Shown here piece after piece: positions 1,916 to 42,332 of a stretch of 64,000 nucleotides of DNA. The notes under the pieces were generated by a model. The model searched no databases. It worked only from the letters and a program-made list of their open reading frames with translations, and was not told the DNA's origin. Position 1 is the first letter of the stretch. Every line of letters starts with the position of its first letter. The DNA lies in the NCBI RefSeq assembly GCF_032854445.1, contig NC_088304.1, forward strand, positions 24,599,513-24,663,512. The letters run 5' to 3'. The position numbers and the translations under genes were made by a program. This stretch comes from Liolophura sinensis. Its lineage: Eukaryota; Mollusca; Polyplacophora; Chitonida; Chitonidae.

Positions 1916-2120
1916 ATGTTGTCGCGCTGCCTATTGGGGGCGTGGCTTGTCACCCTGGTAACCACAGGGTTGGCGCAAACCCCCGCAACTCTTCGTCAAA
2001 CGACATGCACTAACCGAGTGGTTGAGATCATCCCTGATGCAGACGCTGTGATTGGTGGGCTGTTCGCCATCCACTCTGACACCTCAGCCAATGGGTATGG
2101 ATGTGGACCACCCATTTCTG
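1916..2120 (+). CDS. Gene A exon 1: signal peptide and start of VFT1
   Basis: Begins at ATG 1916, five bases after a pyrimidine-rich 3' splice site (acceptor AG 1910-1911). Residues 1-20 form a signal peptide with core LLGAWLVTLVTTGLA; cleavage is likely after Ala20. It then runs into the first VFT strand (VIGGLFAIH) and the first conserved Cys (GYGCGPPIS). The donor is ctg|gtgaga; the exon ends in phase 1. The upstream ATG at 1880 lies in the polypyrimidine tract and was not used. Confidence 0.85.
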
Positions 2121-2197
2121 GTGAGAAATATTATAAATATAAAACTTTTAGGTACTCTATACAAATTTAACATTAAAAGAGAAGCCAAGGCTAGACA

Positions 2198-2247
<50 letters not shown>

Positions 2248-3481: not shown

Positions 3482-3535
<54 letters not shown>

Positions 3536-6500
3536 AGTAAGGAAAGGTTTCTAATTAGTTAATACAGAATAACTCTTATTTTGACATGAGTTTTATGTAT
3601 ATATATAAATTTTTTTTTTTTCAGATTCGATGCAGGGTTTTGAGGCCACCCGGTGGATTTTGGATTTGCTGAACAAGAAAAATATCACGATCAACAATCA
3701 GCTGCAGGTGGATAGTTACATTCCAGGTGTTAAACTAGGTGAGTTATGACATCTGTGGAGCGTGGGATTTCCGGTTCAATTCAAACAGCCTGGATAGTTA
3801 TTTTTTTGAAGTGACACTGTAGACGGCTGGTTATAAAGAAGAACAGAAGCATGTCTCATGGATGTCAACTCTGGTGTTGATCAATCAATAACTTGGTTTG
3901 AAAATGATGTTAAAATGGAAGTTGAAACTCTAACGCAGGAGTTGATATCCATAAGTAATGCTTGTGTTCTCGTTAGTTTTCTAATAACTAAATGTTCTGG
4001 CTGGCTAAGCAGTCTAATAGGTTCTCCAAGTAGTCCATTGATCCTTGATTTAATATACATGCATTGAGGTTTCCTTGCTGGAATATGGCTCTTTCTAGTT
4101 TAACCATATGCCTGATACTCTCTGGTTGGTTTGCTTGCGAAACCAATAAGGTGCTGTTGTTTCTCCTGGGCTTTGTTCAGTTTGGTTGCAGAATAAACAT
4201 TATCTGAGGAAACCAAACATGGCAAGGTGCAATGGCTTCCTCCCTGTTCAGTTCCGTTTTTCTGCTGCGTAACAAGATGTTTGAGAAACATGGCAAGGCG
4301 CGGGGGCTTCCTCCCTGTTCTGTTCTGTTCAGTTTTGCTGCTGCATATCAAGATGTTTGAGAAACATGCAGTGGTTTCCTCCCTGTTCTGTTTGGCTTTT
4401 CTGCTTTGTAACAAGATGTTTGAGAAACATGGGAAGGTGTGGTAATTTCCTCCCTGTTCTGTTCAGTTTTTCTGCTTTGTAACAAGATGTTTGAGAAACA
4501 TGGCAAGGTGTGGGGGTTTCCTCCCTGTTCTGTTCAGTTTTTTTGCTGCGTTACAAAATGTTTGAGAAACCTGGCAAGGTGCATTGTTTTCCTCCCTGTT
4601 ATATTCAGTTTTTCTGCTGCGTTGCAAGATGTTTGAGAAACATGGCAAGGTGCAGTGGCTTCCTCCCTGTTCTTTTCAGTTTTTCTGCTGCATATCAAGA
4701 TGTTTGAGAAACATGGCAAGGTGCATTGGCTTCCTCCCAGTTCTTTTCAGTTTTTCTGCTGCATATCAAGATGTTTGAGAAACATGGCAAGGTGCAGTGG
4801 CTTCCTCCCTGTTGTATTCAGTTTTTCTGCTGCATTACAAGATGTTTGAGAAACCTGGCAAGATGCAGTGGCTTCCTCCCTGTTCTATTCAGTTTTTCTG
4901 CTGCATATCAAGATGTTTGAGAAACCTGGCAAGATGCAGTGGCTTCCTCCCAGTTCTTTTCAGTTTTTCTGCTGTGTGACAAGATGTTTGAGATACATTG
5001 CAAGGTGTTGGGGTTTCCTCCCTGTTCTCTTCAGTTTTTCTGCTGCGTGACAAGATGTTTGAGAAACCTGGCAAGGTGCATTGGCTTCCTCCCTGTTCTC
5101 TTCAGTTTTTCTGCTGTGTGACAAGATGTTTGAGAAACATTGCAAGGTGTGGGGGTTTCCTCCCTGTTCTATTCAGTTTTACTTTCACCTATAAATCTGA
5201 TTATAGCGGATAACATTAAACATTTTCACAAAATTTTCAGCCACATTCTAAATAGGGCAAGATGAAGGCACCAAATTGAATGTGAAACAATGATTCACAC
5301 AACAAGGTGTAGATGTATTTGTGTTGCTTGCATTAATGATACTGGCATGTATTTGTCTTGTATGTATTTGTCTTGTGTATGTGTAAGTTGATATGTGTAT
5401 GTATTTGTGCTACTTTTGTGTATTTAGGTTACTATGAAACTTGTGTATGTATTTATGTTAATTGTATCCATTTGTGCTACTTGTATTTATTTGTCGTAGT
5501 TGTATGTGTTTAGGTTACTGATTTGTACATGTATTTGCCTTACTTGTATGCATTGCCACACTTGTATACATTTGCCTCACTTGTATGCTGTTGCCTCACT
5601 TGTATGCCTCACTTGTATGCCTCACTTGTGCGTTTCAGGTATGAGGGTGATGGACACCTGTATGAGAGCAGAGAAGGCCCTAGGTGGGGCCACTGAGCTT
5701 TTCCCGCGTCTGGGTGGTAGTGAGCAAACCTGTTCTCAGACAAATAAAGCCATGCTGGGTAAGATTATGTTCTCTACTAAACTATGTCATTGTTATTCTG
5801 CGTTTTTGGGGGGCACTTTGGTGGTACTAACCTGTTGATGATGCTCTCTAGTGAAGTCTTGCATGGAGTTAGCCACAAGGGACCAATAAAATGTCTTCCA
5901 CCAATACAACATCCTATAACTTGCCAAACATGGGTGAAGAATGGGGTAGGTGTTACCCAAATATTTTTAATCATTTAATTAGGAGGCACAAAACTATGAA
6001 GATTGTCATTTCACCATTAGTTCTCACAAGACTTCACTTTTTGATGTTCTTGTACATGTATGTACATATCTGCTTGAAGTTTTTCAGCCCAATCATTTTC
6101 TTAAGATTTCTATGTAAGATTTTGTTGGCTTCCATTATGAAAAAAAAGGCTTATTTTAAAAAAGTGTAATTTTGGTAGCCAGTTTAAAGAGTGAATGCTG
6201 TAGCATTTTTACAAAATTATACTAACATGTAGGCGTGCAAATAGAACCTAATGGTTCATTATTGAAATATGCAATGTTAAAGGACACATGACAGTTTTTT
6301 TATTTCTGTATCCTTTAAAATTATCATTTATTTTCCTAGGTAGAGGTGTTTTCTTTGAATTGTCTCCCCTTAATAAGCCAGCATGGATGGCATTGGCCAT
6401 AAAGCCATGTTCAAGTCCAGCTCATGCTGCCTTCCTCTGCGGCCATACATGCGAAGGTCTGCCAGCAGCCTGTGGATGGTCACAGGTGTCCGCTCATTTC

Positions 6501-9500
6501 CTCCCATCTTAATGTTGGCTACCGTCGTATAAGTGAAATATTGTTGAGTACAGTGTAAAATACCAATCAAATAAATAAACAAAGCTATACATGTATTGTG
6601 AAATACATATGTTTTTAGCTTCTGTACAGAAACCTTCTGGATAAATTGAAATATGTAGATTTCGCTTCATTTTTCCGGATCAAGCAGAGCATTGAATAGA
6701 AAATTTTTCTCAGATCGGTTTTTGGCATTCAAAAATGTGTGATTCAAATTTATTTTTGAATAAAGTACATTAATTAAAGAATAGTGAACATGTTTTTTTA
6801 GGCATCATTGACATGAATCCCAGCCCAGTTGCAGCAGAATTAGCTGAGTTGGGGGAGCAGTATAACCTTCCTGTTGTGTCATTCGCCGCCACGTCATCAG
6901 ATCTGAGCAACAAACTGAAATATCCAAATTTCATGAGAACCATTCAGCCCGAGAGGAAAGGACTGACAAGGGTAAGGGTTAGCAGAAGCAATACTCATTT
7001 ATGGCCCATCAGTGCCATCTGGATGATGTCTAAGGGAAGATAACTCTGTGCTATAGTCCTTCACAAGCCCACTGAATGATATCACTAATCAGTCAGGTTA
7101 TCTTTCTTTGATATCCAGATGGTGATATGCCAGGGGCCATGTATAACTTTATATTGTTTCCCATTTTTAAGCATTTTCTAAAAGAAACCTTAAATTGTTC
7201 ATGTGATTTTACAAAGGTATTTGTAGTTTAAATGCATGTAACTTTTTAACAGACTGTACTTGTATGTGGCCTGTCTAAGGGTAACCTGTGTAGAGTTTTG
7301 TTAAATATGAACATGTTAGAAAACAAGCCTTAAGTTTTAATCTTGCTGTTTTTCCAGGCAGTGAATGAGGTTCTTCGCCACCTAAAGTGGACGTACATCA
7401 CAGCGGTGTACACAGACGACCTCAGATCTATGGAGTACTACCGGGAATTCGTACAAAATGTGGGCGGGTCGGGCGTATGTGTGGGATCCGCAGTCCGTCT
7501 GGCACACGACAACACCAGCACAGCCACCATGAATGCAGCGCTGAACAGACTTCTTCAAGCCAATGCCACTGGTGTCGTGTTTTTCGGAAAACCTGAAGTG
7601 GCAGAGAGTATCTTGAGGGCAGCGAACGGTTACACGAATGCAGGAAAACTGCAGTGGGTATTTGCAGACAGTATCAGCATTAGCTCCCTTTTCCCAGGTC
7701 TAACTTACCCACGTGGGATCATCGCCGTCCAGCCATTTTCCCGGACAATGGCCGAGTTTGAGGACCACTGGGTGCAACTCAACGAGCTCTCCCCGCCAGT
7801 TGATGACCCGTGGTTTGCAGAATGGTACATGACGGAGTATCAGTGTAACCTTCCCACAATGAACATGGGCCACCCAAGGGAGTGCTTGATTATTGACGAG
7901 ACAACAAAGCGCTCCCGGTTTGTCCAAGGGCGTCTCGTGGAGCCTGCCGTCCTCGCCGTCTACACATACGCCCGTGCTCTGCGCAAGGCCCATGCCGATC
8001 TCTGTCAGGGCGTGTCTGGTATGTGTGCCAATCTCCGGTCTCTGACCTCAAAGCAGTTTTATGAGAACTACCTGCAGAAGGTTAACTTCACGTTCATGAC
8101 CCCAGAGAGAGTGCCCAGTTTGTCCACACCCAACTCTCAACCCTACTTGGCCCCCGAGAGGCTCCAATTTGACAGTAACCTGGACATTGTTAATTCCGCC
8201 TACAAGATCTTCAACTTTAACAACCAGCAGGGAATTTACAAATTCATACGGGTAAGAAAACCTCATTACAGTTATTTTCATGTCAAATGTTTTGGAAAAC
8301 AGGCCTTGTTGTCAAGGAGACACCAGTTTTAATGGATTTTTTATAGGTGAGCTAACAACACTAAAGAGGCAGAAAATGGAAGAAAAATAAAATTGAAAGT
8401 ATTCTAATGCTTTGAATGGTTTTCAAGGCTTTCAAGGTTTTTCAATCCCATAAATACGTCCAGTTTTTCTGTTTTGTTTTGTACCCTTTTCCCACATTGA
8501 CAAAAAATGTTCATTTTTCCCATAAAACAAACCTTTAACTTGGTATGGCCTAATACTTCTGTGTGGCCTAACCCATCTGCATTGCCTAACACATCTGTGT
8601 GGCCTAACACATCTGTGCTTCCACATTGTTGAATGAGAACTGTTATCTGTAATACGTACTGGTATACATATTTTGGCTGTGTTCTACATGGGACTAATAC
8701 TTACTGCCAGGTTCTACACACTCTTTTGGACCAATAAAAAGTGTTTGGAGATCAAAAAAGATAGATAATGAACAGGCACTTGCAGGGCTTTATGTAGGCA
8801 ATTTTTCATACCTATATGTTTTATTATCAGAGCCAAAAGCCAAAAAAAAAGAAAAAAGAACTCAAAGGAAAAGAGTAGAAATATGAAAAATTTGCTGATT
8901 TGGATCAGTTTTAATGATTTAAGATTACTTCTTCACATTTAGTCTTTTATTTGATCTCTGTAGATCTTGTATAGGAACAGTGGATGTTTTTGATGAGTGT
9001 GTTATTACCCAGGCTGGTCTCTGTCAGTTTTAAGTACCAGAATCAGTGTTCTGTCGGTTTTCAGCACCCGACTCAGCGCTCTGTTCAAGAAATTGTAATC
9101 CATAATAATACTGCTACTTATACACAAATAGATATAGGGCTGCCAGCAACCTGCAGATGGTCATGGATTTCCTCCGGGCTCCGCCTGGTTTCCTCCCACC
9201 ATAATGCTAACCACCATAATGGGTCTTGAGTATGACGTAAAACACCAGTCAAATAAATAGATAAATAAATTAGATATAGTTCTATAGTGTCACAGTTAAT
9301 TGATATCTCACAACCGAGCCCAAAAGTAAAAGGTTGCATAATATTTGGGGCGGAATATCAGAGCATAGCACAAGAAAATAATCAAGATTACATTTAACGT
9401 GCATTCAGTAACTTTGCTTAAAGGAAGAGGTTAAACCAAAAAACATAGGGTCATCAGACGGACCACAAAAGCTGTGTCTGAAAATTCTCGGAATTTTAAA

Positions 9501-12500
9501 GATAATGATTTTTCACTGCAGTTGATTGTACAGTTTGTGTGGGGGGATTTTACTTTCATGAACCATAATGTATTCCATTATTTCAGGATGATGTTGGAGG
9601 TAAATTCATTTTTTCACCCCATTAAAACATGAGTGTTTCTTAATTTATTGTATTTTTCTGATATATGTACATGTAACTTAGCCTACAGTTAATGTGTGCA
9701 TGTATTAAACACATAATCCGGTTAGTAACTGGTATTGTATACGTCTGCAGATTATGGTAAAAAAAATAGGATACAGTGACAAAATTCATACATGCACATA
9801 TATTATACATGTATTGTCCATAAAGCCTTCCTTAAATCCAAACGTTTAAATCCCTGTAGTTAGGCAAGAAAAAAAATTCAAAAATTAGTGCACATATTTT
9901 TGTGTTTTTGAGTGGTCGATCCAATATTCACTTCTTTTCTCTAAGGCGCCAGTTCAAACCGGGTTGTGGATCAAATTTCTAGTTGTGTGGAAAAGTTAGT
10001 CAGTGAAATGACAAGATTCATGGGTTTATTTTTTACGGCTGTCTGGCTCCCTCCATCTATGGAATTGGCCATCGTTCAAAGTCTTGAAAACAGCTATTTG
10101 TAAACAAGAAACAACTAAGTGAATATTAAACAGATGCAGTTTTGCTAACCTTTTCATGCTACCATTCCAGAATTTTGCTTGTGACTGTTTCTATAGGTTG
10201 CCACAGTTCTGGGAAAGAATGAACCAGTCATATTTACGGGACTGCAGATGTTTGATGAATCACGGACGACTGTGCAGACAAATCCCCCAGCATCCTCTTG
10301 CCCCACTTCAGGCTGTGAACTTTGCCAGGGTCCAGAGTATCAGGCTAAATATCTTTTCCTGGATGGAGACATTATTCTGAATGGACTCTTTACTGTGCAT
10401 CGTGCTGGGCCGACGGCACTCTCCTGCGGTCCTTTGTCAGAGTTCAGTCCCTTGATTGTGGAGGCGATGAAATGGGCCGTGGAGAATAAAGCCCCAGCGC
10501 GTCTCAGTGGTGTAAAGCTGGGAATGCTTGCCTTCGACGATTGTCAGAGCTCACTCATCGGCAAAAATTTGGCATATGGAGCTTCTTCAGGAATGATGCG
10601 AATCGAAGACGGAACTGGAAGTTTGCTAGAGCCGCAGAAAATAGAAGGTTACCTGGCAGCTGCCTCGTCAAGTAGGACGATAGACTTTTCTGAGTTCATA
10701 AACCGTGTCCGCAAGCCTCAAATATCGTATGCAGCCACTAGCCCTGTTTTATCCAATCAGAAAGAGTTTCCCTATTTTCTGCGCACCATTCCATCTGATA
10801 CTTCACAGATTCGAGCAATTGTCATGATGCTAAAACTGTTGGGATGGCATAATGTCCAGGCCGTGCAGGATGCAACTTCTTACGGACGGGACGGAATCAA
10901 TGAGCTGAAGCGAATTGGTGCACAGGAAGGGATCTGCATTGTCGCTGTTCATGAAGCTGAAACTGACGGCAACATGACGGATATTATTGAGCGTCTGCGC
11001 GCGAGACCCTGGTCACAACCAGTGGTGCTGTACATGCAGAGTCAAGCAATCAAAGACTTCTTAAGGGCTTACAACAGCATGGGTGCGAAGGGCGAATTTG
11101 TTTTGATCGGTTCAGAGACCTGGGGCAAAAACAAGGACATTTTGGCAGGAATGGGTGACGTTGCAGAGGGCTCAATAACCGTTCAACCGGTGGACTTGGT
11201 TTTCGATGGCTTCAAATCATATCTGGCAGGCCTTGATGCGCGTACATATCTCACCAACCCGTGGTTTGCTGAGCAGTATGAGATGCTCAACAACTGTAGC
11301 ATTGACTCTCGGAACCCGATGTACCCAACTCCTTGCTCAGACGGCCCGATTGTTGACAACAATGTGGATCTAGATGTGTACAGCCAGTACACCATCGCAG
11401 CCGTCGAGACTTTTGCCATCGGCCTTCAGAAAACCTTGGAAGTTTTCTGTGGGGTGGGGTATCAAGGAGTTTGTAGCCAGTTCATTACAGCCAGTAACAA
11501 GATTGACATCTTGATGAAGAATATCGAAGATGCCACATTTTTCGATGACCGCCAACCGAAAAACAGGGAGTTTGAATTCTACAATCGTTCGGGGAATGTT
11601 GACTTCATAATCTACAGCGTGTCAGGACAAGGCCAAGACTACCGTCAGGTAACAGCAAAAACAAAACCATGGGGTCAACATTCAAAATACATGCATAAGC
11701 ATCACCCAATATTAATTTCCGTAACATTTTTCTTTTTTGTTATAATGCTTCACAACGTTGAAAGTCCAGATTGTGATGGATTGTTATATAAAAGTTTGAT
11801 CTGAATTAAAGTAAGCACCTTAATAAAAATAACCCTCAATCGTCAATGTTTTCCTACATGTGTCCATTAGCTGTTGGAATCATTATCATACTGTTTACAT
11901 GTATGTATAGTAAACTAGAAAACCCTTCAAGAAAGTTCTATAGTCTAAATGGGAGTTACCTTATTTCAGATCGCCACGTACAAACCAAAGGATAACCTCT
12001 TGGAACTTGAAGGAAGCTTGCAGAACAACATTGACAGTATCGTTTTGCCAGATCCAAACAAACGCCCCAATGACTGGAGGGCGGAATGCCCAGGTTTGTG
12101 CCTCGAGTGCATGTACATGTTCTCTCACCAGCCATATATGTACAAGCCAGGAGACATCGTTCTGCCAGCCGTCTTTGATGTTCACAAGTCTGGAGAGTTT
12201 CCATTTTCCTGTGGAGAGCTTAGTGACAATGGCTTCCTGATAACTGAAGCTTTTGCCTTCGCTGTCGACACGGTGAATGCTGGTACAGGCCCCGTAAAAC
12301 TGAATGCTGGCCAACTGGGGCATCTTGTCTTTGATGGTTGCACCAACCCGACAAGAATAAATCAACTGGTCACAAGTTTTGTAGGCTTTAGCGGGCTTGG
12401 CATACAAGAGCTGGCCTCAGACCGCCACCCTGGCTGGATGACCTTCAGTAACGAGGGGACTTTAGGGGTTGTTGATGTACTACAGAATCTCGGCATTCCA

Positions 12501-15500: not shown

Positions 15501-18500
15501 GTGTAAAATATAAATACTGTATGTGGAATATGTAAAACGTAAATATTGTGTGTAAATTGTGTAAAATATAACTACGGTATGTAGAATGTGTAAAATAATA
15601 CATGGGGACATTCTGATTATTCTGTTGAGCTGGTGAATGTAAAAAGTCAATACCATTATGTCAGTATCACTTCAAGAACACCAAGAGTATGGCTTACTTG
15701 ACATGTCAGTAAAAAAATATCTAAAGAAAAATCATATTCTTGCCTATGCGTAAGATTTGAATATTTTTTGTTATTTTCCTTTTTTTAATTTTTTAAACGT
15801 GGCTTGCAAATCCATTGGAAAGTGATATTAATGGAGTGATGCTAGCAAAACAATTTTGCAGCCTCAAGACGTTTTTAGTCATTTTTTTCCTTCTTCAGGG
15901 CTGTTTGATGTCCACAAAGCAGGACCTACTCCATTTACATGTGGAAACATCAACAAGAAACATGGCTTCGCTCTGCTGGAGGCTTTCAACTTCGCTCTGG
16001 AATATGTAAATAACAAGACAGGCCAGTTTAGCAATATCTTGAGGGGAATCCGCTTTGGAGGTGCCGCATTCGATGTCTGCCAGCAACCCGACCGAGCTGG
16101 AAACATTGTCGCGAACATCCACAGCGGGAACCGCCCCATGGTGGTGAATGGACGAGTCATTGACCCAGAGCGTTTCGATGTCTACATTGGACCATTTGAC
16201 TCGGAGTCGTCAATCCGGGTTGCCGATGTCCTCGATGTCATGGGAATCCCACAGGTCAGCTACGGGGCTACGAGTCTGGAGCTACGTAATGCCCGAGACT
16301 ACCGCTACTTCCTGCGGTCCGTGCCAGCCGATGACAAGCAAGCCCGAGCTTTGATCTCGTACTTGAAGTTCGCTCACATAAACTACGTCCAGGTCATCAA
16401 CACCTTTAACAGTGTTGGTGAAAAGGGCTTAGAAGAGTTCTTGAGATTGGCCTACCTCAACAAGATTTGTGTGGCCCAGAACATTACCGTAGGCATGGAT
16501 GGATATGTCGATACCAAGGAAGCCACTGAGGCTGTGGGAAGGCTGGAAGCCCACAACCGTGCTACAACTGTTATCCTTTTTGTGGATGAACCACAAATCA
16601 TTCTCCAGGCAATAGAAAAGAATCCAGCAATCGGGGGCAAGTACCTGGTCATTGGTACAGACAAGTGGGGAGCTGATCCAGAAATGCTGATTGGTCTAAA
16701 GCATACTCTTACCAAGGCCGTAACCTTTGACATTGAAACTGCAGATGTACCAGAATTTGATCGCTATCTGGAAATGAAGAATCCTTCCACGTACAACACT
16801 AACCCATGGTTTGATGAATACTATGAGGCAGTCTTTGGTTGCCAGATTCAAGGGTCTGGCACGCAGAAATGTGAGGGTATCCGCGGGATCTCTCGGTCCC
16901 CAAATTACCTCCAAGATCCATATGCCCTCTACGTAATTAATGCTGTTTTCTCGGTGGCCAAGGGAGTCCACAACGCACTACTTGAGCACTGCGGACCTGG
17001 ATACAGTTTCGCCTGCGACAATTTCAGAATCAGTGGAGAACGGCGACAGATGATATTGAGTGGGATGAGGAAAGCAAATTTCAGCGACTGGACAAGACAG
17101 CTCTTCTACTTCACCCCAGGGGGTGAGAGTGACCGTGGCTACCATCTGTATGAAGTCCAGTTTGACAGCATCCTGAATACTTATGTCTATGAAGATGTAA
17201 GTAAACTGTTGCTTACCTTTTCTGTCCAGCTTTCTGAAAAAAAAATAGGGCTCTTTCACAATTTTCGTACCTTTTATAGGCACTACAGTCTATTCTACGT
17301 CTTTTATGAAAAGAATTTCTAGAAATATGACTCACAAAGTGGCCCCAAATCATTTCATGTAAATAAAGTCATCACTTCCTTTCTGTTTTTTTTTGTTTTT
17401 TTTTTGTTAAAATGGCTTACCCATTTCCTGGCAATTTGGTTCATTAAAAAACAAAACTGACTTACACTGTGGCAGGGTTAAAGCTGCTACGCTCCACACA
17501 ATGCCTAAGTCCCTGCATCCACCGGACACTCAGTCCCTGCCACAACCCCACACACAGTCCCTGCAACCACACGACACACAGTCCCTGCCACAACCCCACA
17601 CACAGTCCCTGCAGCCACCCCCACACACAGTCCCTGCAACCACACAACACACAGTCCCTGCCACAACCCCACACACAGTCCCTGCCACAACCCCACACAC
17701 AGTCCCTGCCACAACCCCACACACAGTCCCTGCAACCACACGACACACAGTCCCTGCCACAACCCCACACACAGTCCCTGCAACCACACGACACACAGTC
17801 CCTGCCACAACCCCACACACAGTCCCTGCCACATCCCCACACACAGTCCCTGCAACCACACGACACACAGTCCCTGCCACATCCCCACACACAGTCCCTG
17901 CAGCCACCCCCACACACAGTCCCTGCAGCCACCCCCACACACAGTCCCTGCAACCACACGACACACAGTCCCTGCCACAACCCCATACACAGTCTCTACA
18001 GCCACCCCCACACACAGTCCCTTTAGTCACCTAGCATGTTTTTCCATCCTTCCTGGTTCGTTAATTCCTATTTTTGATTAATTTTGCTAGGTTGGAAGCT
18101 ACAATGACACCCACTTCTTGAAGATCGACGCATCCTACACCATGGAGCACCATTCCAGCTGTAACACAGAGATGCCTGGCGACTGTGTCGAGTGTCAGTT
18201 CCCCACTTACCAGCCTTCACGCTACATGCTGAAACGCTCTACAGAAGACTTGAACGTTGTGGCAATCCTAAACGTCCACAAGGCAGGCTCTAGCTCCTTA
18301 GAATGTGGAGAGATCAATATGGAAACAGGATTCCAGAACCTCTTGGCGTTTTTCTACGCCATCGACATGGTTAACAGGAATGCAGACGCCGTTTTGACGT
18401 CAACTCTGAAACTTGGAGGCCTAGCATTGGATACATGCTCCTCCCCTATACAGCTGGGGCAGGATCTGTACAGCCTGCTCAGCGGTGAGGGACTCTGTGG

Positions 18501-21500
18501 GGTCAGCGGCCGCACCGGACAAATCGTCGATCCCTCCTCCATCGTAGCTTACATCCCCGATGGAAACTCTAACTCCATTATCACCAGCAGCATTATGTCT
18601 CCACGTAAAATCACCTCGTTTAGCCAGAGTGCCACATCTGTCGAGCTTAGCGACAAGGACATCCATAGCCACTTCCTGCGGACTGTTCCACCGGATGACA
18701 AACAGGCTCTTGTCATGGTCGACATTATACACAGAATGGGATTCAACTTTGCCTCTGTCGTGTACAGCTACAACGACTATGGGAAAAGCAGCGTTGAGTT
18801 TCTTCTGCAAAACGCTGAAGATCGCAATGCAACAACTTGCATTGGCAAAGCCATCGCGATGTACCCCAACGCAACAGCTGAAGATGCACAGAACGTGATA
18901 ACGGAGTTGAGATCTGTTGTTGGAAGCCGAGCTGTGATCCTTTTCCTGGACACTCACCATAACCGTCTGCTTCTTGACGCTGCCAGCAAGATGGGCGTTA
19001 GGAATCGTTTTGTCTGGATAGGCAGCGACACCTGGGGAGACAGCAGATCTGTGGTCGAAGGCCTGGAGGATTTTGCGCAGGGAGCAATCACAATCCAGAT
19101 CCGATCAGAAACAGTGGAAGGATTCAAAGCCTACATGAGTGATCTGTCTCTGACCAACCGCAAGGGCATTCCAGATGACTGGTTCGAAGAATTCTACCAG
19201 CGTAAACATCAGTGTCGCATTCTCAATAGTCAGGTCAGCCTGCCATTTCCACAGATCTGCAACGGTGCAGAGAATATAAATAACAGCATAGTGCAAAATC
19301 CGTCAGTCCTCCACACCATCATAGCGACTTATATGATTGCCCAGGGCATCAACAGTATAGCAGAGTGCAGCCAGACCAGCCTGAACATCGCAGGCTGCCT
19401 GGAACTTCAACAAAACAAGAGAGACTTGATTTACAATGGTATCTCGGAAGCAGAGTGGAATGTTTTGCCTGATGACTTAAAGAACAATTCATTTGTATTC
19501 CGGCTGACACCCAGTAGCTATGGAGCCATAGAATACAACATTTTGAATTACCATAGAAACAAGAACACAGGACAGTTTGAGTACAAAAAGGTAAGTACTC
19601 CACTGCCAGTTTCTGTGTGTACCTGGAGACTCCCTGAATCAGTGTTTATGGGCAAGCCCTTTAGGGGTCTGGAATTTCATGAACTTGGAAAGTCATAGAA
19701 GGATCATGGAATTTCAACACCCTGTAAAAAGTATATGAACCGTGATAATGGCAAAAGCCAAGCACTGGTCAACCCGGTCTCTTTGTACACATCCTGCTGT
19801 AAGAAAGATTGATAATATGCCATAGGCTTTGTAATCACCATATTTTTGTACATATAAAAGTCTTCAAAAAGACATGGTGGAGGTGCTTGAGTTTCCATCA
19901 CTGTGTCACATAAGACCTGGTGGAAGTGCGTGCCTTTCAATCACTATGTCACATAAGACATGGTGGAAGTGCTTGCCTTTCAATCACTGTGTCACATAAG
20001 AACTGGTGGAAGTGCATGCCTTTTAATCACTGTGACACATAAGACCTGGTGGAAGTGCTTGCCTTTCAATCACTGTGTCACATAAGACATGGTGGAAGTG
20101 CTTGCCTTTCAATCACTGTGTCACATAAGACATGGTGGAAGTGCTTGCCTTTCAATCACTGTGACGCATAAGACATGGTGGAAGTGCTTGCCTTTCAATC
20201 ACTGTGTCACATAAGACCTGGTGAAAGCGCTTGCCTTTCAATCACTGTGTCACATAAGACCTGGTTTGAAGTGCTTGCCTTTCAATCACTGTGACGCATA
20301 AGACATGGTGGAAGTGCTTGCCTTTCAATCACTGTCACATAAGACCTGGTGGAAGTGCTTGCCTTTCAATCACTGTGACACATAAGACATGGTGGAAGTG
20401 CTTGCCTTTCAATCACTGTGTCACATAAGACCTGGTGGAAGTGCTTGCCTTTCAATCACTGTGACACATAAGACATGGTGGAAGTGCTTGCCTTTCAATC
20501 ACTGTGTCACATAAGACCTGGGTTCAATGCAATCCTTGGATCAGTAATATTAAAGATTCTCCTGCTTCAGTTGCTCTCAGGGGGCCTTGGTGGCAGCAAG
20601 CTGACATCTTGTCTGGTCTTCCATGGAACTTGCTATAGACCACTTGCCTTCCAGCAATATGACGTATGGCATTCTCTTGCAAAGCTTTGCCCTTATGAGT
20701 TGCCAAAAGTGGATGGTTCCCTTGAAAAATTCAGAATATGGTGTTTAAAAAAAAAAGGCATGAAATAGGGTCAGAAAATGACATATCTCAATCACAGTCC
20801 AGGCCATTAATTATGTTAACAGAATAAAACAATATCAAAATGTCCAAAAGACCAGTTTCATTTATAAAATTAGCTTCAAAATCCCTGTAAAATAAATTTG
20901 TAAAATTAGATAATGAGATAGTTTCCAGTGATGTTATGCAGGCATAATGTGAGTGATGAGGGGCCTCCGTGGCTCAGTTGGTTAGCGTGCTAGCGCAGTG
21001 TAATGACCTGGGAGCCTCTCACCAATTCGGCCACTGTGAGTCCAAGTCTAGCTTCCTCTCCAGCCGTACTTTGGAAGGTCTGCGGAACCTGCGGATGGTC
21101 GTGAGTTTCCCCGGACTCCACCTGGTTTCCTCCCACCATAATGCTGGCCGCCATTGTATGAGTGACATATTCTTGAGTATGGCGTAAAACACCAATCAAA
21201 TAAATAAGTAAAATGTGAATAATTATGGTAATGTCTGATGTATCAAATCCAGCAGTTTATGTTTAAATAGTGAAAAACTCCATTCTACAGTGGACCAGTA
21301 CAGTTCTAATAATGCACATCATTCAGCTATAAAGAAAGAAAAGGTACATGCATGTCTGTATAGCACTTCCTGGTTCATCTGCTTTCAGATTGGCACTTGG
21401 CAAGATGGCCTTAACTTGGACCCTGAGATGTATGTTGGGTCTTCCTCGTCTGCCCAGCTACCCTTGTCTCGCTGTCCCGTGGGTAGCCAGTGCAAGTGCC

Positions 21501-24117
21501 AGGCCACAGAAGGAAGGACCTACAACTTCCGCTCTGTTGCATCCACTTCTTTATACATGATCAATTCAGGACAAGAATATGTGGATCCAGTGTCTGGGAT
21601 GAGCGTCAGCGCTAACAGCCAACCTCAACTCGCTGATCGCTTCGTACAGGCATGGGGAACAATCGTTGCTACCTGTGCCGCCATAGGTCTCTTCCTGTCT
21701 CTCTGTCTGTTCATTTATCTGTTGATCGTCTACCCAGTCCGAGACGGAACATCCATTCTGGGCTACCTGCTGGTGTTCGGACTGATCATCATGTTCGCGA
21801 TGGTATTCCCGTTCATCCTCCATGCTAACAACCACATCTGCGGACTGAGGCGATTCGGCCTTGGGGTGGCTTACAGCATCTGCTTCGCTGCACTGTTTGT
21901 AAAGCTGGTGGACGCCTGGCGTACGCGACACAAGGCAGAATTCACAGAAGTCAAATACGAGAAACTTGGTCGTCCTATGGGTCTTCTGTTCATCGCATTT
22001 TGTCTGATTGGAATCCAGGTTCTGATTGCTGCGGAGTGGCTCATCCTTCAGCACCCGACCTCTGAGTATGTCATCTACAGGGGCGTCCTATGGCCTCGCT
22101 GCAGCCCTGACCAGGATGTGGGCATGATGAAGAACTATGACACGGGACTTATCCTCTCTCTCGTCTACGTCATGTTTCTCATTTTCCTCTGCATTGTCTT
22201 CGGTTTCTGCACATGGGGCGCCCGCAAAAATCACCGCGAGGCACGCTACATTCTGGGCGTGTCACTATTCAGCGTACTGGTATGGATTCCCTGGAGTTTG
22301 GCGTCCACACTGTCCGAGTACAAGGTGCGTGATCCCGCCGTGGCCATTGGACTGCTGGTGAACGCCTTTGTGATCCTTTTCTTTATACCGCTGAGGAAGC
22401 TCTATCTGTTCAACCGTTACCAGAAGGACCTGAAGGAAGAAGAAAGCAACTCCCATTACCTGATTTCTACTTCGAAAAGTAAGTCACTACATGTCACCAG
22501 GTAACCATTTACACCTGACGTTAATCAAACAAGATGTTTTTCTGATTGTTGAAAGTGCTGTATTTCAGCCAATGTTTGGAACGTAAAAATGCACTTTCAG
22601 AGGCACATGAGAACCATAAAATGATACTTTTGATGCCAATACTTACGTTTTTTTCTGAAAAAGAAATTAGCCAAACTTAACCAGGTGAAAAACGTTGAAC
22701 TTTTGGGTGAAATACGGTAAGGTATTTCTTCAGTTACACAATTTCCAGCGGGCAATGGAAGTCACAGTTAACAAATGCCACTTCCCACCTGTACATGTAT
22801 CAAATCAAAGTTGATGTACAGTGTATGGTGGCACTCTACTGTACTTCTACAGCCTTTTTGCGTGTTTGCAAGGTGTTGATTCAGACATATTCTGAAGGCA
22901 TTATTCTGTGTAGCCCGATAAAAAAAATTTATACATTCTGTGAAACCCTGAAACCGGCCAATTCAGCCGTTGTAGTTTTGTTTCCAAAAAGGCCTCCAAA
23001 ATTGCACTAAAAGTTGCTCTTTCGTATGGGAAAATGTTGAGGAATTAGAGTAATTAAACTGCCCATCAATGTGAACTGTAATGACTGCTGGTCATACGTT
23101 ACAGAAAACATTAAATGACATATTAAAATGACAAAGATTTCTCAAAGCTGACTAACAAATCAAACCTGGAGTATCTTTTGTGACAGTACTCCGTCTAATA
23201 CTTACCTTTCTTCTAACTGGAAATTTGAGGAAATAAAATGTCTTCCATGAGAAAATCCAGCCATTGTCCAATAGCAAAAACACCATTGAGAAAGGCCTGG
23301 CCATATTGTGAAATACATATACTGAATATGTTTTAATTTGAGTATGAATGAATTCCTAACCAAACTGACAAGCTAACTCATATTTGTGTGTCTTTCTATT
23401 TATAGCTGATGACTATTCTATTGCCTACCCGTACGACCAGCAACAGATGGTTTTCCACGACAACAACTCTCTACACAATGGACGCTCCCATATATCAAGA
23501 AGTATGTAGATCTCAACTTTGTTCTCATGCTGTTCTCTTGTTAAGTTGCTGCAGTGAGCTTTGGCTGTAGCCACATGTTGACAGGTTTGACTGTGGCCAC
23601 ATGTTGACAGGTTTGACCGTGGCCACATGTTGACAGGTTTGACTGTGGCCATATGTTGACAGGTTTGACTGGTACCAGACCTGCTGCAGTGGTTTCCTGC
23701 ACCCGTAAACTGCCATCATAAAAATGAAATATTTGTATTCTTGAGTATCGTGCAAAGAGTCATTGGGATAACCTAATATGATGCATTATATGGTTTTGTC
23801 TTGGCTCTGCCTAATTTCTTTCTGACTGCCAGGTTTCCTTCTGACTGCCAGGTTTCCTTCTGACTGCCTGATTTCCTTCTGACAGCCTGGTTTCCCTGAG
23901 CGTTAGGTTATGTGTCACTTAACTCACTGTACCTCCCTACTGTACCTGATTTCCTCTTTTCTTTGCTTGGTTTCATCTGGGCTCTGCTTTCCTCTCGGAT
24001 CCATTTTTTCCTCTGTTATTTTGTTTTTGCCTTTTTCCTGCCAGAATGAGAAAAACTGACAGGTTGTAATGTACATATTTGTCTGTTTTCTTTGTTTCAG
24101 GTGAAGTCCTTCATTGA
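1916..24117 (+). CDS. Gene A: class C GPCR with five tandem Venus-flytrap domains
   Basis: Predicted plasma-membrane receptor of 2,859 residues from 13 coding exons: 1916-2120, 3625-3738, 5639-5758, 6802-6971, 7358-8251, 10197-11648, 11970-13415, 14610-14787, 15899-17196, 18091-19590, 21389-22478, 23406-23501, 24101-24117. All introns are GT-AG; exon lengths sum to 8,580 nt with no frame conflict. Order: signal peptide (1-20), VFT1 (about 30-500), VFT2 (about 556-985), VFT3 (about 1045-1467), VFT4 (about 1520-1959), VFT5 (about 2012-2459), seven-helix core (about 2546-2799), short cytoplasmic tail. Each VFT has the early Cys pair, an ATS motif and an mGluR-type NPWF-like motif (DPWF, NPWF, NPWF, NPWF, DDWF). 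The mGluR family normally has one VFT plus a nine-cysteine domain; here there are five VFTs and only three-cysteine linkers. The ligand is unknown. The start was chosen because a 3' splice site ends at 1911 and a signal peptide follows. Two adjacent fused genes or a skipped splice are possible but fit less well. Confidence 0.88.
2121..3624 (+). other. Gene A intron 1
   Basis: A phase-1 intron of 1,504 bp. It carries a (TA)n tract at 2199-2243, a dispersed SINE-like repeat at about 2530-2826, older repeat remnants at about 3089-3480, and a second (TA)n tract at 3486-3530. The acceptor follows a run of T (3609-3621). The 141-codon frame starting at 2052 crosses the donor and reads through the (TA)n tract, so it is not a gene. 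Confidence 0.8.
3625..3738 (+). CDS. Gene A exon 2: VFT1, first helix
   Basis: 114 nt, phase 1 to phase 1. With the split codon it reads DSMQGFEATRWILDLLNKKN, the first VFT helix after CGPPIS, followed by the strand ending PGVKLG. The acceptor is a long T tract plus cag; the donor is ctag|gtgagt. Class C receptors have G-x-x-x-x-x-A-x-x-x-A-I/L-x-x-I-N here, which this matches in spacing. Confidence 0.85.
4152..5185. repeat. 71-bp minisatellite in gene A intron 2
   Basis: About 14 copies of a 71-bp unit containing 'ggcttcctccctgttctttt', 'cagtttttctgctgcatatc' and 'aagatgtttgagaaacatgg'. Because 71 is not a multiple of 3, the same short peptide (MFEKHGKVQWLPPC) returns in a different frame each unit, which explains the ladder of small open frames spaced 71 bp apart on both strands. 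They are not genes. The array fills most of intron 2 (3739-5638). Confidence 0.95.
5336..5632. repeat. Degenerate 'gtatttgtgctacttgtat' repeat
   Basis: Irregular short repeats built on gtatttg and cttgtatg words (for example 'cctcacttgtatgcctcact') fill the 300 bp before the exon 3 acceptor. The unit is too decayed to give one length. The pyrimidine-rich last copies merge into the 3' splice site at 5637-5638. Confidence 0.7.
5639..5758 (+). CDS. Gene A exon 3: VFT1 Cys pair and following helix
   Basis: 120 nt, phase 1 to phase 1, reading G-MRVMDTCMRAEKALGGATEL and on. The DTC carries the second Cys of the first conserved VFT pair (mGluR family: L-G-x-x-x-x-D-T-C). The exon ends TNKAML before donor catgctgg|gtaaga. 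Junctions to exons 2 and 4 give continuous VFT sequence (KLGMRVMDTC; AMLGIIDM). Confidence 0.85.
6401..6585 (+). repeat. SINE, 5'-truncated, in gene A intron 3
   Basis: Matches the body and 3' end of the tRNA-derived SINE family seen whole at 20961-21211: 'ttcaagtccagctcatgctg', the gaaggtctgccagca block, then gtataagtgaaatattgttgagta and the caaataaataaa tail. The tRNA-like head is missing. The overlapping open frames at 6288-6582 are not genes. Confidence 0.85.
6802..6971 (+). CDS. Gene A exon 4: VFT1 hinge and ATS motif
   Basis: 170 nt, entering in phase 1 and leaving in phase 0 (ends GLTR, donor agg|gtaagg). It encodes IIDMNPSPVAAELAELGEQY and the strand PVVSFAATSSDLS, followed by FMRTIQPERKG. 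The ATS matches the class C motif whose Thr contacts the ligand alpha-amino group in mGluRs. The Asp normally found in the following P-P-D is absent (QPER), which speaks against canonical amino-acid binding in VFT1. Confidence 0.85.
7358..8251 (+). CDS. Gene A exon 5: rest of VFT1
   Basis: 894 nt, phase 0 at both ends, residues about 204-501. It reads from AVNEVLRHLKWTYITAVYTD through lobe 2 to the return into lobe 1: DDPWFAEWYMTEYQCNLP (the mGluR-type NPWF block), a late Cys pair (LCQGVSGMC), and the terminal strands ending YKFIR. The donor cgg|gtaaga cuts at the same structural point as the ends of exons 6, 7, 9 and 10. The aspartate of the mGluR G-S-D-x-W motif is not evident (VFADSISISS), so VFT1 may be structural. 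Confidence 0.87.
8252..10196 (+). other. Gene A intron 5
   Basis: A phase-0 intron of 1,945 bp. It holds a short 19-bp repeat (gtgtggcctaacacatct; 8548-8624, about four copies) and a SINE fragment at 9130-9272. Nothing else is recognised. The acceptor is 'gactgtttctatag|gttgcc'. Confidence 0.8.
9130..9272 (+). repeat. SINE fragment (3' half) in gene A intron 5
   Basis: Shares ctgccagcaacctgcagatggtc, the cctggtttcctcccaccata block and the 'tcttgagtatgacgtaaaac' end followed by an (AAATAG/AAATAA)n tail with the full SINE at 20961-21211. Head absent; more diverged than the full copies. Confidence 0.85.
10197..11648 (+). CDS. Gene A exon 6: linker and VFT2 (module 1)
   Basis: 1,452 nt (484 codons), phase 0 to phase 0, residues 502-985. 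It starts with the strand after VFT1 (VATVLGKNEPVIFTGLQMFD), then a three-Cys linker CPTSGCELC (Cys 536, 541, 544), then a whole VFT: NGLFTVHRAGPTALSCGPLS, LGMLAFDDCQ (paired Cys), SYAATSPVLSN, TIPSD, TSYGRDG, IGSETWG and TNPWFAEQY. Pocket positions are partly kept: ATS, the Asp of PSD and the Tyr of SYG; Glu replaces the Asp of mGluR G-S-D. Symmetric phases mean this exon can be duplicated or skipped without breaking frame. Donor cgtcag|gtaaca. Confidence 0.88.
11970..13415 (+). CDS. Gene A exon 7: linker and VFT3 (module 2)
   Basis: 1,446 nt (482 codons), phase 0 to 0, residues 986-1467. Begins IATYKPKDNLLELEG, then linker CPGLCLEC (Cys 1025, 1029, 1032), then VFT3: VFDVHKSGEFPFSCGELS, LGHLVFDGCTNP, SPGATSPLLNS, TVPSD, HGNPWFREHF and a late Cys pair (KCGSNYTSVC). 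The mGluR Tyr after TM-distal lobe hinge is not seen (APDSASQAL) and the G-S-D aspartate position reads FLTNQD, so this pocket is more diverged than VFT4 or VFT5. Acceptor 'accttatttcag', donor gaagag|gtgagt. Confidence 0.88.
13668..13984. repeat. 29-bp minisatellite in gene A intron 7
   Basis: About eleven copies of a 29-bp unit, 'aggtcatattaaagttgatg' plus acaggtcac. Units vary as acaggtcac, ataggtgac and acaggtgac. It starts about 250 bp after the exon 7 donor. Confidence 0.93.
14186..14440 (-). repeat. Full-length tRNA-derived SINE in gene A intron 7
   Basis: Reverse strand reads ggggcctccgtggctcagttggttagcgca, a tRNA-like head with an A-box-like tggctcagttgg, then a body with ttcaagtccagctcatgctg and a 3' end gagtacggcgtaaaacaccaatc. 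It is one of three near-complete copies in the window and is inserted antisense to gene A, 170 bp before exon 8. Confidence 0.9.
14610..14787 (+). CDS. Gene A exon 8: linker with furin-like site, start of VFT4
   Basis: 178 nt, entering in phase 0 and leaving in phase 1, residues 1468-1527. It encodes LGKLNQDGSITANLASNARARRSK, then the linker CTGQCSQC (Cys 1499, 1503, 1506), then NADIFIG, the first VFT4 strand. RARR-S at residues 1486-1489 (bases 14664-14675) fits the furin rule R-X-K/R-R. This is the only module with an intron between linker and VFT. Acceptor 'ccatttttctcag', donor ggag|gtaaga (14788). Confidence 0.82.
14664..14675 (+). other. Putative furin/proprotein-convertase site RARR
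   Basis: Codons cga gca agg agg give RARR followed by SK in the flexible linker between VFT3 and VFT4, upstream of the linker cysteines. The motif R-X-[K/R]-R is the consensus for furin-type convertases in the secretory pathway. Cleavage would separate VFT1-3 from VFT4-5 plus the membrane part unless a disulfide or contact holds them. Seen in sequence; cleavage itself is inference. Confidence 0.5.
15333..15598. repeat. About 30-bp minisatellite in gene A intron 8
   Basis: About nine units around 'atactgtatgtagaatgtgt' plus aaaatataa. Minus-strand frames read as Tyr/His/Phe-rich repeats (YILHNLHTIFTF) and are artefacts of the array. Intron 8 (14788-15898) has no other recognised feature. Confidence 0.88.
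15899..17196 (+). CDS. Gene A exon 9: VFT4
   Basis: 1,298 nt, entering in phase 1 and leaving in phase 0, residues 1527-1959. Reads GLFDVHKAGPTPFTCGNINK, FGGAAFDVCQQP (paired Cys), YIGPFDSESS, QVSYGATSLELRN, SVPADD, IGTDKWGADP, NTNPWFDEYYEAVFGC and INAVFSVAKGVHNA with a late Cys pair (HCGPGYSFAC). It keeps the S-x-S-S, ATS, Asp (PAD) and Asp (GTD) positions of mGluR pockets, but the Tyr of NYG is Val (NSVGEKG) and the helix lysine near INAVF is Tyr. With exon 8 it forms module 3 (1,476 nt, phase 0 to 0). Acceptor 'ttccttcttcag', donor gaagat|gtaagt. Confidence 0.88.
17197..18090 (+). other. Gene A intron 9
   Basis: A phase-0 intron of 894 bp, more than half of it the 24-bp array at 17526-18022. 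The exon 10 acceptor (tttgctag) lies only about 68 bp after the array. Open frames on both strands over 160 codons come from the array. Confidence 0.85.
17526..18022. repeat. 24-bp CA/C-rich minisatellite with G-run minus strand
   Basis: About 20 copies of 'acacagtccctgccacaacc' plus ccac (24 bp), with subtypes ccacaacccc, ccacatcccc, gcaaccacacga and gcagccaccccc. 24 is a multiple of 3, so four or more frames stay open throughout and read HTVPATTP, THSPCHNP or CVWGCGRD. On the minus strand every unit has GGGG and GGG runs, so the array could form G-quadruplexes. Not a gene: it starts and ends inside intron 9. Confidence 0.95.
18091..19590 (+). CDS. Gene A exon 10: linker and VFT5 (module 4)
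   Basis: 1,500 nt (500 codons), phase 0 to 0, residues 1960-2459. Starts VGSYNDTHFLKIDASY, linker CNTEMPGDCVEC (Cys 1983, 1991, 1994), then VFT5: ILNVHKAGSSSLECGEINME, LGGLALDTCSSP, GNSNSI, SQSATSVELSDKD, TVPPDDKQALVMVDIIHRMG, YNDYGKSSVEFLL, IGSDTWGD and PDDWFEEFY. This is the most mGluR-like domain: it keeps Ser, the ATS Thr, the Asp of PPD, the Tyr of DYG and the Asp of GSD. The mGluR K-x-x-F-V-I-N-A lysine is not present (VLHTIIATY). As the membrane-proximal VFT it is the best candidate for the domain that drives the helices. Donor aaaaag|gtaagt. Confidence 0.9.
19872..20520. repeat. 43-bp minisatellite in gene A intron 10
   Basis: About 15 copies of a 43-bp unit, 'cataagacctggtggaagtg' plus cttgcctttcaatcactgtgtca. 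Variants alternate acctgg and acatgg, and gtgtca, gtgaca and gtgacg. It starts about 280 bp after the exon 10 donor. Confidence 0.94.
20961..21211 (+). repeat. Full-length tRNA-derived SINE in gene A intron 10
   Basis: Reference copy in this window: head 'gggcctccgtggctcagttg' with gttagcgtgctagcgcag and a B-box-like region near gtgagtccaag, a conserved body (gaaggtctgcggaacctgcggatggtc), a 3' end ttgagtatggcgtaaaacaccaatc, and an (AAATA)n tail. It lies about 180 bp before exon 11. Confidence 0.92.
21389..22478 (+). CDS. Gene A exon 11: stalk and seven-transmembrane class C core
   Basis: 1,090 nt, phase 0 to phase 1, residues 2460-2823. After IGTWQDGLNL comes a short CPVGSQCKC (Cys 2488, 2494, 2496) in place of the nine-Cys domain of mGluRs. 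Seven hydrophobic helices follow: TM1 about 2546-2570, TM2 2581-2604, TM3 2610-2635, TM4 2655-2680, TM5 2711-2735, TM6 2744-2766, TM7 2775-2799. Class C marks: TM3-top Cys (HICGLRRFGLGVAYS) and loop-2 Cys (WPRCSP) for the conserved disulfide, NHREARYILG before TM6, and PLRKLYLF after TM7. Acceptor 'ttcatctgctttcag', donor aaaa|gtaagt. The reading frame runs on past the donor for eight codons (SKSLHVTR, stop), a possible retained-intron end. Confidence 0.92.
23406..23501 (+). CDS. Gene A exon 12: cytoplasmic tail
   Basis: 96 nt, phase 1 to 1. Reads T-DDYSIAYPYDQQQMVFHDNN and on to HNGRSHISR. Tyrosine- and Asn-rich tail with no recognised motif. Acceptor 'tttctatttatag', donor caagaa|gtatgt. 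Gene B has a phase-1 tail exon in the same place with unrelated sequence apart from a shared S-R-S near the end. Confidence 0.75.
23566..23668. repeat. 26-bp repeat in gene A intron 12
   Basis: Four copies of 'tgtggccacatgttgacagg' plus tttgac. A second array of four 20-bp units (ctgactgccaggtttccttc) sits at 23816-23895. Confidence 0.88.
24101..24117 (+). CDS. Gene A exon 13: last codons
   Basis: Acceptor 'ttttctttgtttcag' ends at 24100. The split codon gives Ser, then EVLH and stop TGA at 24115-24117, so the protein ends SRSEVLH. The exon is short but the acceptor is strong and the phase fits. The alternative is read-through of exon 12 into intron 12, which adds only a couple of codons (SM, then stop). 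Confidence 0.65.
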
Positions 24118-25830: not shown

Positions 25831-25834
25831 AAAA

Positions 25835-28812: not shown

Positions 28813-28813
28813 A

Positions 28814-42232: not shown

Positions 42233-42332
42233 ATGACTTACATTAAGAACATAGCACATGTGATCTACCGTTTTGTTATCTTTATGCTATTCAAATCGCG
42301 ACAGACACTGAAGGAAAATATGAGTAACTCAT

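Follow-up and report, generated by a model that had tools for sequence, protein, structure and literature searches.

Can a class C receptor core stand below a whole series of Venus-flytrap domains (VFTs) within one chain? The mGluR, CaSR, taste and GABA-B receptors carry one VFT per chain and work as dimers. An earlier note on the stretch of DNA analyzed here (the window: 64,000 nucleotides, C10:24599513-24663512 of the Liolophura assembly) had described a gene in which five VFTs precede a single class C seven-helix (7TM) core. We examined this gene, its homologues in other animals and its relatives in the same genome.

We rebuilt the gene model from the window sequence. The gene occupies 1916..24117 on the plus strand, from an ATG at 1916 to a stop codon that ends at 24117, and its 13 exons encode a stop-free chain of 2,859 aa. 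All 12 introns are GT...AG introns with matching phases. The rebuilt model agrees in start, stop, exon count and codon count with the 13 exons of compatible phase and 2,859 codons reported previously. Calculated from base composition, the probability of being free of stops ranges from 3e-6 to 7e-12 for the six large exons (E5, E6, E7, E9, E10, E11). The exons (E1 to E13) and what they encode are as follows.

1916..2120, plus strand: E1, start codon, signal-like stretch (MLSRCLLGAWLVTLVTTGLAQ, by eye) and start of VFT1; GT donor, phase 1
3625..3738, plus strand: E2, VFT1 lobe I; phase 1/1
5639..5758, plus strand: E3, VFT1 lobe I with DTC and the loop cysteine (SEQTC); phase 1/1
6802..6971, plus strand: E4, VFT1 with the ATS motif; phase 1/0
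7358..8251, plus strand: E5, remainder of VFT1 (lobe II, helix-F cysteine GVC); phase 0/0
10197..10361, plus strand: first part of E6, linker 1, C-x4-C-x2-C
10362..11648, plus strand: rest of E6, VFT2 (PF01094, 2.8e-37); exon phase 0/0
11970..12146, plus strand: first part of E7, linker 2, three cysteines
12147..13415, plus strand: rest of E7, VFT3 (PF01094, 8e-25); exon phase 0/0
14610..14787, plus strand: E8, linker 3 (three cysteines) and first strand of VFT4; phase 0/1; the exon is likewise split in paralogue C10a
15899..17196, plus strand: E9, VFT4 (PF01094, 4.8e-38); phase 1/0
18091..18240, plus strand: first part of E10, linker 4 (GSYNDTH...), three cysteines
18241..19590, plus strand: rest of E10, VFT5 with the loop cysteine (PF01094, 4.1e-39)
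21389..22478, plus strand: E11, linker 5 (three cysteines, without an NCD3G match) and class C 7TM core (PF00003, 5e-36); helices at about 21641-22393
23406..23501, plus strand: E12, cytoplasmic tail (DDYSIAYPYDQ...), like the tails of orthologues by eye only
24101..24117, plus strand: E13, final codons and stop, 17 bases; weakly supported, without homology

The layout of the exons follows that of the domains: VFT1 is split over E1-E5; VFT2, VFT3 and VFT5 each lie in a single exon together with the preceding linker (E6, E7 and E10); VFT4 is formed by E8 and E9, and the 7TM core is in E11. The five borders that follow the VFTs are all in phase 0 and at the same place in the protein, just before a strand (I/V/L)-(G/A)-x-(Y/W/V/L). 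When the junctions of C10a, a paralogue on the same contig, were taken as implied by tblastn of its NCBI protein (P0013), six of the seven were homologous to those of the window gene within 1 aa, and the seventh lies in the unalignable tail. As an alternative to E13, read-through of exon 12 meets a stop two codons on; the rest of the gene model is independent of this weak 17-base exon.

The introns of the five-VFT gene contain minisatellites at 4215-5180, 13674-13985, 15335-15597, 17508-18022 and 19869-20521, with periods of 71, 29, 29/87, 24 and 43 bases, respectively, and the 24-base repeat is open in several frames. Others in the window are at 25831-26394, 28376-28813, 36939-37796, 42327-42745 and 55376-55780 (periods 30, 60, 26, 21 and 60); the one at 25.8-26.4 kb has frames of >200 codons open on both strands.

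We ran hmmscan on six pieces of the protein, with VFT1 as joined E1-E5 and with E6, E7, E9, E10 and E11 singly (E8, E12 and E13 left out). PF01094 matched VFT1 at 9.9e-35 and the other four VFTs at the values listed above, PF00003 matched once, and all matches were far over the cut-off, in keeping with the five VFTs and one class C helix bundle of the earlier note. The CG...DxC pair, the ATS motif and the NPWF-like block that it had assigned to each VFT are indeed present in all five, the last as DPWF in VFT1 and DDWF in VFT5. Eight hydrophobic peaks, the first two overlapping, occur from residue 2544 onward, none exceeds the threshold before 2544, and the tail beyond the last helix is about 65 residues long. 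By eye, the tails of five-VFT proteins from several species share a tyrosine-rich stretch, DY..MY..QYDN...HD.

To find out whether this architecture is confined to the window, we turned to protein databases and to the rest of the Liolophura genome. A search with the whole chain against 5.8 billion proteins returned 17 hits, of which 14 are near full length (2,699-2,890 aa). The ten that are named all come from molluscs: the bivalves Sinanodonta, Mytilus, Pecten, Saccostrea, Mactra and Mercenaria, the gastropods Haliotis and Littorina, a chiton (P0013) and the cephalopod Argonauta. Using an HMM built from the window gene's own five VFTs, we counted exactly five VFTs in 13 of the 14 and six in P0001, in which the first VFT is split. 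Several of the homologue models begin within VFT1. Two Octopus entries are shorter (2,158 and 1,613 aa), and P0017 (2,176 aa), with 4% of the query covered and two partial VFT hits, was left out of the counts as not a member of the family. The homologues bear the database names 'uncharacterized protein', 'hypothetical protein' or 'metabotropic glutamate receptor 3, partial'.

Four entries labeled 'lgn', which we take to be assemblies of public reads, bear directly on whether one mRNA encodes the whole chain. Their contigs of 8,840, 11,087, 9,646 and 9,018 bases hold ORFs of 2,847, 2,870, 2,851 and 2,890 aa, and exceed these ORFs by only 0.3-2.5 kb. Since so little room is left for introns, these contigs are most likely spliced mRNAs. 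That the whole string is held as a single ORF in four homologues makes separate mRNAs for VFT1-4 and VFT5-7TM unlikely, and upholds the single chain that had been proposed.

A second search, with VFT5-7TM, gave 11 hits. Nine are VFT5-only pieces; one, from Dreissena (P0018, 1,430 aa), has only VFT4- and VFT5-type VFTs and a 7TM core, begins inside the end of VFT3 and looks truncated. The remaining hit, a fragment from the brachiopod Lingula (P0020), begins at the VFT4-VFT5 linker (IGSYNDTH...) and continues through VFT5 into the 7TM core, so that a VFT4-like unit probably lies upstream of it in Lingula. The occurrence of homologues in further species, and of two paralogues within the chiton genome itself, rules out an assembly artefact or local oddity. 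As judged from these homologues, we conclude that five VFTs with a 7TM core define a conserved molluscan family: the domain string for which a proteome search had been proposed is present in 14 near-full-length proteins, a point beyond the single gene that was first described.

We then considered the class to which this receptor belongs. Its closest solved relatives are mGluRs, with VFT5 matching mGlu7 at 5.8e-51 (among the best 60 of 101 matches) and the 7TM core matching mGlu3 at 8.2e-23; no GABA-B entry occurred among the best 60 of 101 VFT5 matches or among 60 matches of the 7TM core. Across the six scanned pieces, NCD3G (PF07562) went unmatched at E 0.01. The same pieces yielded no GAIN/GPS domain and no 7tm_2 core, which argues against an adhesion GPCR, and no kinase, which argues against a Venus kinase receptor. 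All 16 aligned sequences have the TM3 cysteine and an acidic residue at the ICL3 glutamate place (E in 14, D in two); 15 have K or R at the ICL3 lysine place, and 11 have the TM6 tryptophan, which the other 5 lack. From these residues, the 7TM core looks able to couple to G proteins. An AlphaFold model of VFT5 was poor (mean pLDDT 58.7, built from 10 sequences), and matches to mGluR structures add little.

For the ligand pockets, we compared the places of residues that contact the ligand backbone in mGlu1, taking T188, D208, Y236 and D318 to be the mGlu1 numbers of four of them. The number of the fifth, S165, comes from PMC3703292, and R78 and K409 of mGlu1 are described as holding the glutamate side chain (PMC6307864). 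Aligned to mGlu7, none of the five window VFTs has R or K at either the R78 or the K409 place. In the cross-species alignment, one of 17 VFT5 rows and no VFT1-4 row carries R at the R78 place; K or R occupies the K409 place in three VFT2 rows and three VFT3 rows (each of 16), and never in VFT1, VFT4 or VFT5. An mGluR orthologue is ruled out by the absence of R78/K409 and of an NCD3G match; by its core and VFTs the predicted protein is a class C GPCR, and by its ligand residues and its lack of the mGluR type of cysteine-rich domain (CRD) it is not an mGluR.

The backbone places are kept unevenly. At the S165/T188/D208/Y236/D318 places, the window has S,T,D,V,D in VFT4, N,T,D,Y,D in VFT5, S,T,D,Y,E in VFT2, S,T,E,R,D in VFT1 and N,T,D,A,Q in VFT3. 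Thereby 4 of 5 places are matched in VFT2, VFT4 and VFT5, 3 of 5 in VFT1 and 2 of 5 in VFT3. VFT4 is the steadiest across species (S in 15, T or S in 16 and D in 16 of 16 rows; the D318 place kept in 11/16 and the Y236 place Y in 5/16), and VFT5 comes next (S 10, T 11, D 12, Y 12 and D 15 of 17 rows). These residues favor unequal VFTs, with VFT2, VFT4 and VFT5 more pocket-like and VFT1 and VFT3 less so, over ten equal sensors. They also favor a ligand that is amino-acid-like, although not glutamate in the mGluR manner, and that would be bound mainly by VFT4 and VFT5.

Two sets of cysteines might connect these domains. One set would link each VFT to the segment below it. In all 15 proteins, each of the five linkers that follow the VFTs has exactly three cysteines, spaced as C-x(3-12)-C-x(1-2)-C, and none of the 81 aligned VFT rows lacks the lobe-II cysteine at the base of helix F. 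In mGlu2, the helix-F cysteine, Cys234, is described as bonding Cys518 of the CRD, which joins pocket to CRD (PMC12394075). By analogy, we infer that each linker may be a reduced CRD, with one bond to its own VFT and one internal bond.

The second set lies in a loop of lobe I. Of 16 VFT1 rows, 14 span this loop and all 14 have a cysteine there, as do 17 of 17 VFT5 rows; VFT2, VFT3 and VFT4 have none (0 of 16 rows each). mGlu7 has one cysteine in the same lobe-I loop region, and we presume that the loop carrying C121/C127 in mGluR2/3 is this loop as well. The loop is variable: in the multiple alignment the column of the mGlu7 cysteine is matched by no VFT1 or VFT5 cysteine, the VFT5 cysteine is one residue off in the pairwise alignment, and only presence within the loop is conserved. 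In mGluR2/mGluR3, the VFT cysteine C121/C127 is reported to make an intersubunit disulfide (PMC8102066).

The five VFTs have kept distinct identities. Within the window protein they are only 18-32% identical to one another, and in a tree of 73 VFTs (from which P0001, P0015-P0017 and a short Liolophura VFT1 piece were left out) V1, V3, V4 and V5 each group by position across species with strong support, and V2 does so weakly, at 69/73. The proteins fall into two paralogue groups: group 1 comprises the window gene, Mytilus, Pecten, Saccostrea, Mactra, Argonauta and four unnamed entries, and group 2 comprises Mercenaria, Haliotis, Liolophura C10a (P0013) and Littorina, with gastropods in group 2 only in this one search. 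Since both groups have all five positions, the five-VFT array was complete before the groups split. Mean pairwise identities in group 1 and group 2, respectively, are 52.4 and 48.2% for VFT4 and 52.1 and 51.9% for the 7TM core, the most conserved parts in both groups, 50.9 and 27.7% for VFT5, and 34.9 and 26.3% for VFT2, the lowest.

Profile searches of the Liolophura genome gave 103 matches of PF01094 and 39 of PF00003. Upstream of the window, on the minus strand, are two more genes with five VFTs and a 7TM core, C10a (about C10:24,523.7-24,536.8 kb) and C10b (C10:24,576-24,589 kb). The VFT and 7TM pieces found in both have open frames; their first small VFT1 exons were not located. Exon by exon, C10a is 98 to 100% identical to P0013, which begins within VFT1. 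Between C10a and C10b, on the plus strand at about C10:24,554-24,566 kb (L018, L025, L026), lie the scattered VFT and 7TM pieces of a decayed copy, whose frames are broken, with 9 stops inside one 7TM match. The cluster, which spans about 140 kb (C10:24,520-24,663 kb), also includes a second gene in the window, so that it holds the window gene, two group-2 five-VFT genes, the decayed copy and one one-VFT gene. This second gene (gene 2; 42917-46994, plus strand; exons 42917-44380 and 45672-46994) encodes a one-VFT class C GPCR of 928 aa, the VFT of which is without the lobe-I cysteine pair; its phase-0 intron before the 7TM exon is at the same place as that of the five-VFT gene (S|IGQY vs K|IGTW).

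Elsewhere in the genome there are five loci with two VFTs: C3:12,427-12,437 kb (L017), C4:10,570-10,590 kb (L013-L014), C7:53,445-53,462 kb (L015-L016), C7:41,596-41,616 kb (L019-L020) and C7:58,872-58,892 kb (L021-L022). These were rejected as further 7TM genes, with no 7TM match nearby. In four of the five (C3, C7a, C7b, C7c), the two VFTs are followed by an exon with a third linker and by one helix; at the C4 locus we located the linker exon and no helix. Of the 15 proteins hit when C7a was the query, eight are of the two-VFT kind (Liolophura, Patella, Babylonia, Nucella, Potamilus, Octopus, Mya and one unnamed), and a strong single helix follows the second VFT in seven of these eight, with none in the Octopus model. 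By eye, the tail of one two-VFT protein has a YVNM motif.

We related these genes in a tree of 50 VFTs, drawn from 6 of 15 five-VFT proteins (window, Mytilus, Saccostrea, Argonauta, Mercenaria, Haliotis) together with C10b. The first VFT of the two-VFT genes grouped with VFT1 (100/99) and the second beside V2+V3+V4 (91/96), which themselves formed a clade (96/94), and VFT5 stood apart, grouped with gene 2 at weak support (82/64). In this tree V2 is not one clade and several rows are long-branched. The grouping of the VFTs, together with unit borders at phase-0 introns, suggests a model of origin in two steps, fusion and then triplication. A two-VFT receptor gene (VFT1-like plus VFT2/3/4-like) would have been joined ahead of a one-VFT class C GPCR gene (VFT5 plus 7TM), and the middle exon unit would then have been tripled between phase-0 introns.

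The arrangement of cysteines and pockets can be drawn together into a proposal for how the receptor might work. Two chains would pair side by side to give a dimer with ten VFTs in series. The multi-ligand sensing, adhesion-like contacts and graded activation that the earlier note had deduced for such a dimer are putative, as is the dimer itself. Intermolecular disulfides would clamp the array at both ends (VFT1-VFT1' and VFT5-VFT5'), and VFT2-4 would pair without a disulfide. In each VFT, a disulfide would run from the helix-F cysteine to a cysteine in the linker that follows, much as the lone VFT of an mGluR is tied to its CRD. With every VFT coupled in this way to the segment beneath, closure of an upper VFT could be transmitted along the stalk. 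The two 7TM cores would be driven by VFT5 itself. Sensing of a non-glutamate, amino-acid-like ligand would probably fall mainly to VFT5 and to VFT4, which is under the strongest constraint of the five, and VFT1-3 may extend, tune or add specificity. Against this assignment of sensors, pocket conservation is patchy (in the window, the S165 place is N in VFT5 and the Y236 place is V in VFT4), and VFT5 diverges fast in group 2 (27.7%).

Several other readings have to be weighed against this proposal. The exons could belong to two or more genes, one for a shed or secreted VFT1-4 protein and another for an ordinary one-VFT GPCR (VFT5-7TM), and indeed two-VFT genes without a 7TM core exist in this genome and VFT5-only pieces made up 9 of the 11 hits of the VFT5-7TM search. 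Nevertheless, there is no stop between VFTs and no hydrophobic peak over threshold before residue 2544, the 14 near-full-length homologues join five VFTs to a 7TM core, four of them as single ORFs on transcript-sized contigs, and paralogue C10a has the same junctions, as its NCBI protein implies; we consider separate genes very improbable. It is much harder to dismiss the idea that the array is a stalk, with VFT1-4 serving to raise or tether the receptor, as structural spacers or as adhesion modules, and with ligand binding and signaling left to VFT5 alone. Five modules would gain distance, VFT1 and VFT3 are without several pocket residues in the window, and VFT2 evolves fast. Yet constraint on VFT4 equals that on the 7TM core, its S, T, D and D are retained, and the helix-F and linker cysteines, which have a coupling role in mGluRs, are kept in all five units, so that we regard a pure stalk as rather unlikely.

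The loop cysteines, too, could be read differently. Those of VFT1 and VFT5 might bond within one chain to form a ring instead of clamping two chains at both ends, and a paired bond of this kind would also explain why both are found in every covering row (14/14 and 17/17). However, mGlu7 too has a loop cysteine in this lobe-I loop region, and the mGluR2/3 VFT cysteine of that kind is reported to bond between subunits (PMC8102066), although the exact columns differ; a ring seems to us quite improbable. As to origin, the five-VFT gene may have come first, with the two-VFT genes its cut-down descendants and no fusion at all. Such descent would fit the presence of both gene types in several molluscan classes and the placement of the two-VFT genes' first VFT with VFT1 (100/99), but their second VFT falls outside the V2+V3+V4 clade (96/94) rather than inside V2 or V4. 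We hold this order of events to be unlikely, while granting it real weight. The five-VFT architecture is nearly certain, and the mechanism is a reasoned proposal. Taken as a whole, we lean toward paired, clamped five-VFT chains with serial coupling, with VFT4 and VFT5 as the main sensors and with an origin by fusion and tripling of the middle unit.

Comparison with known systems sets this receptor apart. It resembles the mGluRs (mGlu1-8) in its VFT fold, lobe-I CG...DxC pair, helix-F cysteine, lobe-I-loop cysteine (here in VFT1 and VFT5 only), and class C 7TM core with TM3 cysteine and ICL3 E-A-K/R, but differs from them in having five VFTs rather than one, three-cysteine linkers rather than NCD3G, and no R78/K409 in any window VFT. 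Unlike GABA-B receptors, with their one VFT per chain, it has five VFTs and linkers with three conserved cysteines. As in GABA-B receptors, its class C core is reached from a VFT without NCD3G (for GABA-B, PMC12716839). Venus kinase receptors are likewise invertebrate proteins with a VFT of the PF01094 family (PMC3703292), but consist of one VFT, one helix and a tyrosine kinase, against five VFTs and a 7TM core here. The uncharacterised molluscan two-VFT single-pass proteins, such as Liolophura LOC135470406 (P0029) from the same genome, have C-x-C-x-C linkers and share VFT1-like and VFT2/3/4-like VFTs with the window receptor, but end in one helix and a tail instead of a 7TM core. Bacterial sensor kinases of the BvgS/EvgS type also place tandem periplasmic VFTs on one signaling chain (PMC4352136), although the chain is a kinase and not a GPCR.

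A 2025 survey gives ANF+NCD3G, ANF alone and Cache+EGF as the main class C architectures of animals (PMC12716839). The earlier note had known of no characterised class C receptor with five VFTs, and in line with this we found no description of a multi-VFT class C receptor in the open-access literature searched, a scope that lies outside most subscription journals and bioRxiv. We conclude that the five-VFT receptor is real, conserved across molluscan classes and undescribed in that literature.

The receptor departs from the textbook class C plan of one flytrap and one core, acting as dimers, and its presence in bivalves, gastropods, chitons and cephalopods shows that a class C core can sit below a long series of flytraps. 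Tentatively, but as a prospect that deserves to be taken seriously, it may represent a class of receptors that reads several small molecules at once, through five non-identical flytraps in a doubly clamped ten-flytrap dimer with disulfide-coupled linkers, and that would have arisen by fusion of a two-flytrap single-pass receptor with a class C GPCR in early molluscs or their lophotrochozoan ancestors. It offers a natural system for asking how far, and through which links, the closure of a flytrap on its ligand can act on a GPCR, and it adds an unstudied receptor family in economically weighty animals: oysters, mussels and scallops.
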